A stretch of 64,000 nt of DNA from Halomarina pelagica (GTDB lineage Archaea > Halobacteriota > Halobacteria > Halobacteriales > Haloarculaceae), in assembly GCF_024228315.1 (NCBI RefSeq), contig NZ_CP100455.1, positions 434,001 to 498,000 on the forward strand. The letters run 5' to 3'. The notes beneath the pieces were generated by a model. That model was not told the DNA's origin and did not search any database. It saw nothing but the letters and a program-made list of their open reading frames with translations. Each line of letters starts with the position of its first letter. Position 1 is the stretch's first letter. A program made the translations under genes and the position numbers. Positions 55,922 through 59,791 of the stretch are shown here, in pieces.

Positions 55922-56392
55922 TTACGGCGGCATCCACCGGGTGTCGCCGCGTTTCGTCCGGCGGTATCGGAGCCCCGCCTCCTTCATCAGGCGTCGGCAA
56001 CTCGGGATCGAGTAGTCCACGTCGAACCGGTCCCGGACGTGGTCGCGAACGAGCGCCGGCGTCCACGCCGGCGCGTCGTAGCCGGCGGCCTCCGGCGATT
56101 CGCGGAGCGTCCGTCGCAACTCGCGACACTGGTCGTCGGTGAGCTTGCGCGGTCTGCCGGAGCGGTGAGCGTCGTACACGACGCGATCCAGCGACTCGGC
56201 GTCGGCCTCCAGCCGCGTCAGCCAGCTGTAGATCGTCCGCCGTTCGACGTCGAACCACTCGGCGAGTTCCGTCTGCGTGACGCCGTGCTTGTAGGCGATC
56301 GCCGCGAACAACCGGCGAGCCGGGCGACTGTCGTCGAGTTCGTCGAGCGCCTGGCGAAGGGCCGCCGTCGAAACGTCGTCGAGGTGGTCCAT
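55922..56392 (-). CDS. Orphan IS630-type helix-turn-helix protein (transposase N-terminal part)
   Basis: 156 aa from ATG 56392 (MDHLDDVSTAALRQALDELD). The first HTH is RRLFAAIAYKHGVTQTELAE then WFDVERRTIYSWLTRLE. A second, winged domain reads AWTPALVRDHVRDRFDVDYS then IPSCRRLMKEAGLRYRRTKR. This equals the DNA-binding half of haloarchaeal IS630-type transposases. The catalytic DDE half is absent downstream, and no terminal repeats are seen. It is either an orphan ORF A of a decayed element or a domesticated regulator. Confidence 0.7.
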   Translation of the reverse strand: MDHLDDVSTAALRQALDELDDSRPARRLFAAIAYKHGVTQTELAEWFDVERRTIYSWLTRLEADAESLDRVVYDAHRSGRPRKLTDDQCRELRRTLRESPEAAGYDAPAWTPALVRDHVRDRFDVDYSIPSCRRLMKEAGLRYRRTKRGDTRWMPP

Positions 56393-56558
56393 ACACTTCA
56401 CGTGTGAGTACGGGAAGATAGTTCTAACCCTTAGTATCACTGTACTTTCCAGATTGTTCGATAACGTACGAATCTCCGGGCCCTGGACGGGTTTCGACGT
56501 CGGCCGCCCGGGATCCACCGTTACGGGATTCGATAACAGCGCTACGGGTGTTAATCCC

Positions 56559-58505
56559 TCAGATCTCGGTCACGCGGTGGTAGTCGCCGTCGAGCGCGGC
56601 GGCGTCCTCCTCGAGGAGCGCGACGACCAGGTAGTCCGCGTAGTCGGCGAAGTACTCGACGAGCGTGGCGATGCGGTCGGAGTCGATCGCCTCGAGGGAG
56701 TCGAGCAGCATGAACGGGCAGGTCTCGTACACCTCGTGGACCAGGTAGCCCGCCAGCGCGAAGATGAGGCCCGTCACCTCGCGCTCGGACTCGCTCAGGT
56801 GGTCGATCGTGTCCTCGTAGGCCGCACCCGACTCGGACGCCCGGATAACGTGCAGGTCGAACGACGCCTTGGTCACCTTTCGCCTGCCCTCGCGGACGTC
56901 CCGTTCGGTCCGCTCGATCCAGACGCGTTCGAGGTTCGAGTACTCGAGGATGTCGAGCACCGTCTCCATGTGGTCGTTGAACTCGTCGATCGCCCCCTCC
57001 TCGATCGTCTCGATCCGCGTGCGGAGGTCCGTGAGTTCGTGCTGGATCTCCTCGCGCTGGGCCTCGATCTGTTCGCGCTCGTCGAGTCGCCCCTCGATCG
57101 ACTCGGTCTCGTCGTCGATGTCGTCGATGTCGCTCTCGATGCGGTCGATCTCGAACTCGAGCTGGTTCACCTGTTTGTGCAGGTCGAGCACCTCGCTGTA
57201 GTCGGTGCTCTCGAGTTCGTCGACCGCGGTCTCGAGGGACTCGATCTCCTCGTGTAGCTCGTCGCGCTTGGCCTCCAACTCCTCGATCCGCGCTTCGGTC
57301 TCCTCGATGTCGGACTCCAGCCTGTCGACCGTGCGCTCCAGTTGCTCGCGGCGCTGTCGCTCGCGCTCGAGCGTCCGCTTCTCGGACGTGAGGTCGTCCA
57401 GTTCCGACTCGACGTCCCTGACGTCCCCCACCTTGCGCTGAGACAGTTCGCGGAGGCGATCGACCGTCCCCTCGATCTGGTCGGCGTCGACCTCCGAGCC
57501 GCACGTCCAGCACGTGACCGTCTCGTCCGCGAGGAGCTGATCCGTCACCGCCCCGTCGGTCGATCCGTCGTCGGCGTTCAGCGCCTCGAACACCTCGCTG
57601 TTCGCCTCCTCCAGCAGGTCCTGGTTGAACTGGATGATGTTCTGGAGGTCGCTGATGTCCGCCTCCAGACGCTGCTTTCGCTCCCGGAGCGTGCGGATCT
57701 CGGATTCGATGTCGGCCACGTCGCCCGCGGGGGTCTCAGAGAGGTCCTCGAGATCGCTCTCCGCGTCGTCCCTGTCCGCTCGCAGGGACTTCAGGCGCTC
57801 CTGCTGCGTGTCGATGTCGTAGCGGACGTCCTCGAGCCGCGAGCGCGTGTCCCGAAGCTCGTCGAACTTCGCCTCGAGTTCCGATTTCTCCTCTCGCGTC
57901 TCCTCGACGTCCTGGTCCGCCGCCTCGAGTTCCGCCTGCGTTTCCTCGAGTTCCTCGCGCTTGTCCTCGAGGCGCTGTTCGAGACGCGTCCGCTCCTCCT
58001 CGAGTTCCGGCAGGCGCTCGTCGAGCCCCTCGAGTTCGTCGAGTTCCTGCGACAGCTGACGCTTCTCAGCCTCGAGTTGCTCGATCTCGGCCTGCAACTG
58101 GTCCGTGTCGACCGGTCGCATGATGATGTCGCGCAGGTCGTCCTGCCGCGCGACGGCCAGCCGCGCCTCGTTGGATTCGAGCAGGAACGCGAAGAGGTCC
58201 GCGACGTCGGCGTCGTCGAGATACGGGTCCCCGCTGAAGCTGAGCGAACTACCGGTCCGCGAGAGCTGTCTCGTGTACGTCTCGTCGCCCATCGTCAGCT
58301 CGACCGATCCCTCCTCCGCGTCGCCCTTGAGCGACGCGCGATCGCTGCCGCACGCGGCCATGATCGCCTGAAGGAGCGACGTTCGATTCGTCGCGTTTCG
58401 CCCCGAGAGAACGCTCACGCCCGGTGTCAGCGACACCGACGTCGCTTCGATACCTCCTATGTTTCGAACATCGAGGTCGACAGCGGCCTCGGTCTGTTGC
58501 TCCAT
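56559..58505 (-). CDS. Archaea-specific SMC-related protein (Rad50/SMC-like)
   Basis: 648 aa from ATG 58505. It has an N-terminal ATPase half (LDVRNIGGIEATSVSLTPGV), two long coiled coils (about residues 125-330 and 370-560) separated by a CWTCGSE zinc-hook-like CxxC, and a C-terminal half with HLSESEREVTGLIFALAGYL in place of LSGGE and FMLLDSLEAID in place of Walker B. Walker A reads GRNATNRTS, with Arg where Lys is expected, and the catalytic Glu after the Walker B Asp is missing. It pairs with RdfA upstream; in Haloferax volcanii the equivalent pair affects rod formation. It has its own promoter. Confidence 0.85.
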   Translation of the reverse strand: MEQQTEAAVDLDVRNIGGIEATSVSLTPGVSVLSGRNATNRTSLLQAIMAACGSDRASLKGDAEEGSVELTMGDETYTRQLSRTGSSLSFSGDPYLDDADVADLFAFLLESNEARLAVARQDDLRDIIMRPVDTDQLQAEIEQLEAEKRQLSQELDELEGLDERLPELEEERTRLEQRLEDKREELEETQAELEAADQDVEETREEKSELEAKFDELRDTRSRLEDVRYDIDTQQERLKSLRADRDDAESDLEDLSETPAGDVADIESEIRTLRERKQRLEADISDLQNIIQFNQDLLEEANSEVFEALNADDGSTDGAVTDQLLADETVTCWTCGSEVDADQIEGTVDRLRELSQRKVGDVRDVESELDDLTSEKRTLERERQRREQLERTVDRLESDIEETEARIEELEAKRDELHEEIESLETAVDELESTDYSEVLDLHKQVNQLEFEIDRIESDIDDIDDETESIEGRLDEREQIEAQREEIQHELTDLRTRIETIEEGAIDEFNDHMETVLDILEYSNLERVWIERTERDVREGRRKVTKASFDLHVIRASESGAAYEDTIDHLSESEREVTGLIFALAGYLVHEVYETCPFMLLDSLEAIDSDRIATLVEYFADYADYLVVALLEEDAAALDGDYHRVTEI

Positions 58506-58526
58506 GGGTACCGTGACTGCCGAGAC

Positions 58527-58557
58527 GTACTTAAGTGCACCGAAAGGGGGTAACCCC
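58527..58557 (-). promoter_or_regulatory. Promoter and candidate operator of the SMC-related gene
   Basis: The minus strand carries CACTTAAGTA (58527-58536) about 26 bp before ATG 58505. Some 10 bp further upstream is the odd-centred palindrome GGGGTTACCCC (58547-58557). The position upstream of the TATA box suits an activator or a BRE-adjacent regulator. Confidence 0.45.
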
Positions 58558-58636
58558 TCACGGCGATCGAGGCCGGCCAGCGTACGCTCAGCGCGCGTTC
58601 CGGGCGGAGACGGACGGATGCGGATCGTCCCGAGAC

Positions 58637-59251
58637 TCACTCCCCGCAGTTACACCCCCCCGCCGCGAGCAACTCGTTCACCGTGTACTGCGTGTTGCAG
58701 TCCTCGCAGTAGATGCGGATGTCGACCATCGTCCGAAACGAGCCGAGATTCAGCTGTTCGGCGGACCGGAGCTGTTCCAACTGGCTCTCTGTGACCGTGG
58801 ACGTTCGCCCGGCGAGCTTTTCGAGTCGCTGTCTGACCTTCTCGCGCTGGCTGCGCTCGTCTTTGACGCGCTCCGCCTCGCGATACTTAAGCAGGTACGT
58901 CCGGATCGCCTGATACGACACGAAGTCCCGCTGTAGCTCCTCGGGATCGATCCCGGCGCGCTCCAGTCGTCGCTCGATCTGGATGCGCGAGGCGGAACTC
59001 ACCTCGTCGTCGGTCAGGAGCCGATAGAGGTTGTCGAGTTCCTCGTCGACGGTGTCCATCCCGGCGTCCGCCAGCGCGGCCTCCAGCGCCCGCTTGTTGA
59101 ACCACGCGGCGAGATCCCGGAGGCTCCACCGGTCGTCCACCCGCGTCCACCGGACCTCGAGTTCGGCACCGACGCCGTCGAGGCCGTACTTCTCGATGGT
59201 CCGTTTGACCTTCGGTCGAAGCCCCGAAGCGTTCGTTCCTGAATTTGACAT
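58637..59251 (-). CDS. rdfA: Rod-determining factor RdfA family protein
   Basis: 204 aa. Features are the conserved opening LRPKVKRTIEKYGLDGVGAE, WSLRDLAAWFNKRALEAALA, a helical middle (ERVKDERSQREKVRQRLEKL) and a C-terminal zinc knuckle (IYCEDCNTQY and GGCNCGE). This matches RdfA, described in Haloferax volcanii as required for rod-shaped cells and encoded beside the SMC-related gene, the same order as here (131 bp apart). A TATA box GTTTTATCC (59273-59281) precedes ATG 59251 by about 26 bp, fitting a leaderless mRNA. It acts in the cytosol, probably as a regulator with its SMC-like partner. Confidence 0.85.
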   Translation of the reverse strand: MSNSGTNASGLRPKVKRTIEKYGLDGVGAELEVRWTRVDDRWSLRDLAAWFNKRALEAALADAGMDTVDEELDNLYRLLTDDEVSSASRIQIERRLERAGIDPEELQRDFVSYQAIRTYLLKYREAERVKDERSQREKVRQRLEKLAGRTSTVTESQLEQLRSAEQLNLGSFRTMVDIRIYCEDCNTQYTVNELLAAGGCNCGE

Positions 59252-59791
59252 ACGATACGTTCGCGTTCATGGGATAAAACCGTTCGGCTCTCGCGCCGCG
59301 CCGACGATCCTTCGGACGACCGCCGCGGTCCTAACAAATATATCCCTGTTATCTCGTCTCGCCCGCGATCGGATCGGCGAGCCCCGAGAACGCGGGTTCG
59401 CCGGGGCGGAAGGGATCGACTCGCCATTTAACCGTTCGGCCTTCCGGAATAGAGGTCTCCGACGGTTCGAGAACGAGAGCGTCGACCGTCGAGACGGGGG
59501 ATGAACGACGCCGCAGTACGACGCCGTTCCGGACAGCCGAACGGTTACCACGCGCAACCGCACGTCCTCCCTCTTCCGCCCTCCCGGAGAGGAGGAGGAT
59601 CCGGGTCGTCGGGGCCGAACCGCCCCGACGACTATGATTAATCGTGAAGGTATGGTATAACCGTCCGGCTCTCGCGAACCGTTAAGCGGTGAGGGGAGTC
59701 GCCGCCCTCGGCGAGCGTCCGCGGAGCACGACCGGGCCAGACCCCGGCGGGGCGGGGAGGATTTATGGGGGCCGTCCGAGAGGGGAGTGGT
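59252..59791. other. Intergenic with a strong hairpin and two promoters
   Basis: 540 bp between divergent rdfA and the ectoine-hydrolase-like gene. It contains the rdfA TATA at 59273-59281, a perfect hairpin GTCGTCGGGGC-CGAACC-GCCCCGACGAC at 59605-59632 followed by AT-rich DNA, and GATTTAT at 59760-59766 as the TATA box of the next gene (28 bp from ATG 59792). No convincing ORF. Confidence 0.55.

Follow-up and report, generated by a model that had tools for sequence, protein, structure and literature searches.

SMC-family proteins are usually viewed as ATP-driven machines, and the locus described here raises the question of whether one of them has been kept in a form that no longer runs on ATP hydrolysis. 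The locus lies in 64,000 nucleotides of Halomarina pelagica (contig NZ_CP100455.1, positions 434,001 to 498,000; hereafter the window), part of a 617-kb contig, and comprises rdfA, a homologue of rod-determining factor A, and, after an intergenic gap of 131 nt, a gene for an SMC-like protein of the Sph/ASRP family (Table 1). In the heads of SMC and Rad50 proteins, Lys and the Mg2+ ligands hold ATP, Glu activates water and the signature serine closes the dimer. Neither the Walker A Lys nor the catalytic Glu of active SMC/Rad50-type ATPases was found in this protein, their positions being taken by Arg41 within GRNATNRTS (residues 35-43) and Ser603 within LLDSLEAID, and the CxxC hook was kept as CWTC (residues 332-335). 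These readings, like the position of the gene beside rdfA, had been made in an earlier note on this DNA and were borne out; our study found a further change, in that the second Gly of the P-loop is also altered (Asn40). The Mg2+ ligands (Thr42 and Asp602), the signature Ser571, the D-loop Asp608 and the zinc hook are all retained, and Leu occupies the position that aligns with the switch His. A general sequencing fault is excluded because the Rad50 of the same genome carries standard motifs (GLNGSGKSS, LSGGER, LILDEPT and SHDEEL), and that Rad50, together with the presence of the same residues in 131 proteins, ruled out a sequencing error or misread frame.

Of 391 genomes searched in this class, 342 were found to hold an ASRP at E ≤ 1e-60. 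The alignment set behind the figure of 131 held 176 distinct ASRPs and is non-random, with high-scoring and low-scoring matches both picked: 131 of the Arg type (defined by Arg41, and so 131/131 for that residue), seven Asn-Lys proteins in two groups (NK-nested), five termed NK-basal, 24 of the Gly-Lys or Sph1 type and nine non-haloarchaeal proteins. Left out were L084-L086 (Rad50-like), L087-L088 (other ATPases), L114 (a 244-aa fragment of Lys type), L092 (a duplicate of L200), open reading frames (ORFs) shorter than 500 aa or scoring <40 bits, and the loci at which the genome had further matches to RdfA, SMC and Rad50. Within the Arg type, Asn40 was present in 126/131, Thr or Ser at position 42 in 131/131, Ser571 in 130/131, Lys60 in 127/131 and both hook Cys in 131/131. 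In two Arg-type proteins, L159 and L179, a truncation or frame shift precedes Walker B; among the 129 readable rows, of which L169 has an odd reading there, Ser603 was found in 127, Asp602 and Asp608 each in all 129, and Leu at the switch-His position in 128. An unselected subset, consisting of all 56 full-length matches of >195 bits in 43 haloarchaeal genomes, contained 45 Arg, eight Gly-Lys and three Asn-Lys proteins. No relatives were found in viral contigs.

The invariance of Arg41, one of 18 invariant columns among 648 in the Arg type, is not a matter of unchanged DNA: the residue is encoded by each of the six Arg codons (CGA 54, CGG 45, CGC 11, AGG 9, AGA 7 and CGT 5), and it is thus held by selection. 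Ser603 is spelled by both TCN and AGY codons. The other types differ in what they keep. Lys is present in 24/24 Sph1-type proteins, where the Glu position holds Gly in 14, Arg in 3, Glu in 2, Asn in 2, Ser in 2 and Gln in 1, and the D-loop Asp has become Ala in 16/24. Two of them, L181 and L193, combine Lys with Glu, each in its standard position, and are nested among Gly relatives, the residues being either retained or regained. The non-haloarchaeal ASRPs have Lys in 9/9, with Glu (6), Asn (2) or Asp (1) at the Glu position; Leu stands at the switch-His position in 9/9 of these too, so that the missing His is either typical of the family or due to the limits of the alignment.

All seven NK-nested proteins, which have Lys41, carry Ala603. 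Only columns 39, 41 and 603 of the 648, all of them in the ATP site, are uniform in both nested groups for the same residue and rare (<10 %) for it in the Arg type, and this pattern suggests that the altered ATP-site positions evolve together, though not strictly. The Lys41 groups are placed differently by FastTree and IQ-TREE, which also disagree in deep order; loss of Glu, then Gly to Asn, then Lys to Arg would fit the FastTree tree, and the IQ-TREE tree leaves the order undecided. Repeated convergent change is not claimed, as approximately unbiased (AU) tests allow single origins and the independent-pairs test had three pairs only.

The partnership with RdfA extends well beyond this locus. 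With a neighbour limit of 700 bases (L190, whose RdfA readings lie just past the limit, was counted as without, and for four Arg-type genes scored as RdfA-less the flanking sequence on one side is shorter than 900 bases), RdfA adjoins 109/131 Arg-type, 22/24 Sph1-type, 5/5 NK-basal and 4/7 NK-nested ASRP genes, and an RdfA or RdfA-like neighbour with a weaker score adjoins 3/9 non-haloarchaeal ones. Around the 109 Arg-type genes it lies upstream on the same strand in 69, downstream on the same strand in 17, downstream on the opposite strand in 15 and upstream on the opposite strand in 8; since all four arrangements occur, adjacency outlasts operon structure. RdfA and ASRP occur together in 35 of the 43 haloarchaeal genomes sampled, eight have neither and none has one alone. 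The RdfA and ASRP distance matrices, compared without species-tree correction, correlate with r 0.846 (139 of 143 pairs; permutation maximum 0.212), or 0.837 for the 108 Arg-type pairs (permutation maximum 0.184), and the closest RdfA comes from the same ASRP type in 138/139.

Whether the substitutions are fixed in all RdfA-linked homologues was a check proposed in the earlier note, and the answer is no: Arg is present in 109 of 143 such homologues, and Lys persists in the other 34. Both Lys and Glu are kept in three non-haloarchaeal (Methanosarcinaceae) and two Sph1-type members. On plasmid pMETEV01 of Methanohalobium evestigatum, an annotated RdfA over the Pfam cut-off lies beside an ASRP with Lys and Glu; the RdfA-like neighbours on pMETHO01 of Methanomethylovorans hollandica and in G574, of the same family, score 26.3 and 22.0 bits, slightly below the Pfam cut-off of 27. 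Because Lys-keeping and Lys/Glu-keeping pairs exist, RdfA pairing is not tied to loss of the standard ATP residues, and it may be older than that loss. The pair itself may be old or may have spread between lineages on plasmids.

We propose, with a probability of roughly 0.45, that the remodelled ATP site is held by selection and that the protein forms a ligand-bound static clamp or scaffold, set by RdfA, that supports rod shape. In the P-loop of this ASRP type Lys has become Arg and Gly has become Asn, the catalytic Glu has become Ser, and the remodelled site has then been kept. By the known chemistry of SMC and Rad50 proteins, loss of the general base together with the change of Lys should make ordinary hydrolysis of ATP very unlikely, and the heads could still engage round a bound ligand; little or no hydrolysis with head engagement possible is the likeliest state, because Glu and Lys are replaced and the Mg2+ ligands, signature and D-loop are kept. 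With the hook at the far end, engaged heads would make either a clamp that is closed or a scaffold whose units can be linked. Its assembly probably depends on RdfA and abundance and not on an ATP cycle, and it may support rod shape in this organism in the way described for RdfA and Sph3 of Haloferax volcanii. The earlier note's view that the protein may bind nucleotide without hydrolysing it and act structurally is supported in one part, the conserved loss of catalytic residues speaking for the absence of ordinary hydrolysis; nucleotide binding and a structural role are what we infer from the sequence. In Hfx. volcanii both rdfA and sph3 are required for rods, and a cytoskeleton-like role has been proposed for Sph3 (PMC10869688; this and the other PMC articles are cited from excerpts of their text); the disk-only, non-motile deletion phenotype fits a structural role. 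Reports on Sph3 conflict, as PMC13286277 has it promoting plate shape and PMC10869688 has sph3 deletion giving disks only.

Several observations weigh against this proposal. Arg is sometimes able to replace Lys, and the catalytic residue could have been relocated to the invariant Glu605 (129/129). Positions 41 and 603 are not strictly coupled, with Arg41 and Ala603 together in L177 and Lys41 with Ser (4) or Thr (1) in NK-basal proteins; the AU tests do not reject a single clade, either of the seven Lys41/Ala603 proteins (p 0.185) or of all Arg types (p 0.239), so that the joint Lys41/Ala603 change may be a single event. The correlation between the RdfA and ASRP matrices includes shared species history. 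For this organism a part in rod shape is presumed by analogy with Haloferax, the Hfx. volcanii Sph3 sequence lying outside our comparison, and gene conversion also depends on sph genes (PMC11276520). The AlphaFold head is poor, with predicted local distance difference test (pLDDT) values of 31-68 in the N-terminal and 40-77 in the C-terminal head blocks, and the geometry of the pocket is unreadable. Foldseek with this model, whose heads are of low confidence, gave Rad50 7zr1 as the best match (E 2.2e-11), the VIA-align rows mostly cover the coiled coil (160-480), and a sequence search of solved structures returned nothing at E ≤ 0.001 (best 0.005). The RdfA model has a mean pLDDT of 74.6 and found no match by Foldseek at E ≤ 0.001 or by VIA-align at Z ≥ 5, which is no proof of a new fold.

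Among the alternatives, the heads might bind no nucleotide at all, with Arg41 filling the phosphate pocket and pairing with Asp602 and Ser603, and the old ATP site serving as a structural core. The tendency of positions 41 and 603 (and 39) to covary, Arg going with Ser and Lys with Ala in the nested groups, would agree with such a core, as would Asn40, unusual in a P-loop; the retention of Thr42, Ser43, Asp602, Ser571 and Glu574, Asp608 and Lys60, not all of which should be needed in a ligand-free pocket, speaks against it, and we regard it as unlikely. Loop extrusion or repair by SMC and Rad50 proteins normally needs hydrolysis, which counts against the alternative that the SMC-like protein acts on DNA (in recombination, gene conversion or the nucleoid) and affects shape indirectly. 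We hold a DNA role to be about equally improbable. In its favour, intermolecular gene conversion in Hfx. volcanii falls on deletion of any of the four sph genes, of which sph2 and sph4 are not deletable together (PMC11276520), and the related ClsN helps to set chromosome compartments (PMC9389158); against it, deletion of either sph3 or rdfA gives the same disk-only, non-motile phenotype with no growth defect (PMC10869688).

Somewhat less likely again is an active, unorthodox ATPase in which Arg41 stands in for Lys and the catalytic role has moved to the invariant Glu605. Glu605 is present in 129/129 Arg-type and 7/7 NK-nested proteins, yet Gly is found there in 5/5 NK-basal and 21/24 Sph1-type proteins; the missing His alone is no argument against activity, because the nine Lys-keeping non-haloarchaeal ASRPs have Leu at that position too. 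However, Glu605 lies two residues off the standard place, from which its side chain should miss the attacking water. Mere decay of the ATP site under relaxed selection, to which the variable Glu position of the Sph1 type might point, is rejected for the Arg type as scarcely credible, as the altered residues rank with the best-conserved positions in the protein despite extensive synonymous change.

If the proposal of a static, RdfA-set clamp holds more widely, a whole haloarchaeal SMC-superfamily type with a dedicated RdfA partner would have given up the ATP cycle for a fixed Arg/Ser site and a partner-controlled shape clamp, a generalization that we offer tentatively. It would be a natural counterpart of the hydrolysis-blocked mutants used in SMC research, and the conversion is traceable because RdfA-linked non-haloarchaeal relatives keep Lys and Glu and intermediates exist. 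If rod-shape SMC-like proteins run without hydrolysis, models of Sph3 and RdfA should seek a scaffold or clamp, not a motor, and the natural series Lys/Glu, Lys/Gly, Lys/Ala, Lys/Ser and Arg/Ser among RdfA-linked relatives offers ready swaps for Hfx. volcanii genetics. The RdfA-Sph pair, the ASRP family and the rod-shape role in Hfx. volcanii are already published. The altered ATP site goes without mention in the excerpted text of PMC9389158, PMC10869688, PMC11276520, PMC5120986, PMC13286277 and PMC12240190, and a literature search, whose coverage stopped short of subscription papers including the original Sph1 papers, found no other title or abstract on it.

The start of the SMC-like gene at ATG 58505 agrees in the alignment with that of the nearest named relative at this locus, L014 on a Halomarina halobia plasmid (83% protein identity), and residue 15 is the first one covered by the family match; an alternative GTG at 58640, the start of the mechanical ORF, lies upstream. 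The four RdfA Cys columns are Cys in 133, 132, 133 and 109 of 139 aligned RdfA partners. Separate promoters for the two genes, as claimed before, are plausible from the 131-nt gap and the TATA-like elements about 25 nt before each ATG, which would suit leaderless transcripts, and a TTTAT-containing stretch in L014 aligns at the element of the SMC-like gene. The palindrome GGGGTAACCCC, reported earlier upstream of the SMC-like gene, is present there (one of this type found in the window against 0.01 expected, for a pattern chosen after the fact) and absent from the aligned upstream region of L014; a conserved operator is unsupported, as the closest relative lacks it. The Haloferax CsmR motif had no match in the window at up to 2 mismatches.

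Four copies of AACCGTTCGGC, three exact and one with a mismatch, lie within 400 bp (59278-59669) in the interval that separates rdfA from a divergent gene for an M24 peptidase, and the window holds nine at up to one mismatch against 2.7 expected; L014 has no exact copy. They are possibly an operator or a remnant repeat. Pfam identified the peptidase and, downstream of the SMC-like gene at 55925-56395, an orphan helix-turn-helix (HTH) protein (HTH_32/HTH_33/HTH_29). These HTH types are frequent at transposase N-termini. Five RdfA matches and two ASRPs over cut-off are found in the genome, all on the 617-kb contig, and three RdfA copies have no ASRP partner. The second ASRP (L007, also GRNATNRTS) adjoins an RdfA reading split over two frames (7146-8227 of L115, G000:C2:314000-326000); this RdfA looks broken, and its Halomarina halobia relative (L015) reads through.

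Table 1. Features of the rdfA and SMC-like gene pair, in positions of the window
Feature	Position	Strand	Remarks
ASRP / Sph-type SMC-like gene	56559..58505	-	648 aa, ATG start; NF045487 713.7 bits vs cut-off 300
Remodelled Walker A GRNATNRTS, residues 35-43	58377..58403	-	Arg41 for Lys, Asn40 for Gly
Arg41 codon	58383-58385	-	Walker A Lys position
CWTC zinc-hook motif, residues 332-335	57501..57512	-	zinc binding predicted from motif
ABC signature-like motif LSESE, residues 570-574	56784..56798	-	
Walker B / D-loop LLDSLEAID, residues 600-608	56682..56708	-	Asp602 and Asp608 retained
Ser603 codon	56697-56699	-	catalytic Glu position
Glu605 codon	56691-56693		two residues past lost catalytic Glu
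TATA-like element CTTAAG, upstream of SMC-like gene	58530..58535	-	candidate, read from sequence
Palindrome GGGGTAACCCC	58547..58557		read on + strand
rdfA, rod-determining factor A homologue	58637..59251	-	204 aa; PF21811 (Pfam RdfA) 244.5 bits vs cut-off 27
RdfA C-terminal zinc-ribbon-like Cys cluster (C182, C185, C200, C202)	58646..58708	-	
TATA-like element TTTTAT, upstream of rdfA	59274..59279	-	candidate, read from sequence

Comparison with known systems places the protein in the Sph/ASRP family (NF045487; PMC9389158; H. salinarum Sph1 and H. volcanii Sph1-4), with which it shares a full-length match (model positions 1-593 of 593), the coiled coil, the zinc hook, a haloarchaeal distribution and a gene beside rdfA. 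The published ASRP filter asks for Walker A at the N-terminus and for Walker B and the signature at the C-terminus (PMC9389158); the motifs are correctly placed here, but Walker A has Arg and Asn for Lys and Gly, and Walker B lacks Glu. A defence system seems an unlikely identity: among the best 25 of 36 PADLOC matches those to LmuB, JetC, DruC, PbeC and DndD are confined to the coiled coil (the LmuB matches listed fall within residues 133-546); HEC-02A gave a weak match touching the head (residues 11-73, 19.9 bits), and RdfA matched no PADLOC family. Lamassu LmuB would call for a match reaching past the coiled coil and for LmuA/LmuC beside it, and a Pfam scan of the other neighbours showed the HTH protein and the M24 peptidase. 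Rad50 of the Mre11-Rad50 complex is alike in its head, antiparallel coiled coil and CxxC hook, but its Walker A Lys, LSGGE, DE and switch His are absent from this protein, and the NCBIfam Rad50 models among the matches listed gave ≤62 bits against cut-offs of at least 700. Arcadin-4 and the coiled-coil SMC-domain shape proteins discussed in PMC10869688 are alike as SMC-like proteins proposed for cell shape, arcadin-4 forming a separate subfamily (49 bits for its model against 860).

The Methanosarcinaceae plasmid pairs (pMETEV01 and pMETHO01) share the order of an ASRP followed by RdfA or an RdfA-like protein and differ in keeping Lys and Glu, as in APNASGKTS and LDELTYLD. H. salinarum Sph1 (L200, of the Gly-Lys set) keeps Lys (ASNFQGKSS) with Gly for Glu, where this protein has Arg and Ser. 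The RdfA-Sph3 pair of Hfx. volcanii is alike, by description (PMC10869688), in its adjacent rdfA and SMC-like gene, and two plasmid-borne Haloferax relatives in H. gibbonsii and H. mediterranei carry GRNATNRTS and DSLEAID identical to those of the protein described here.

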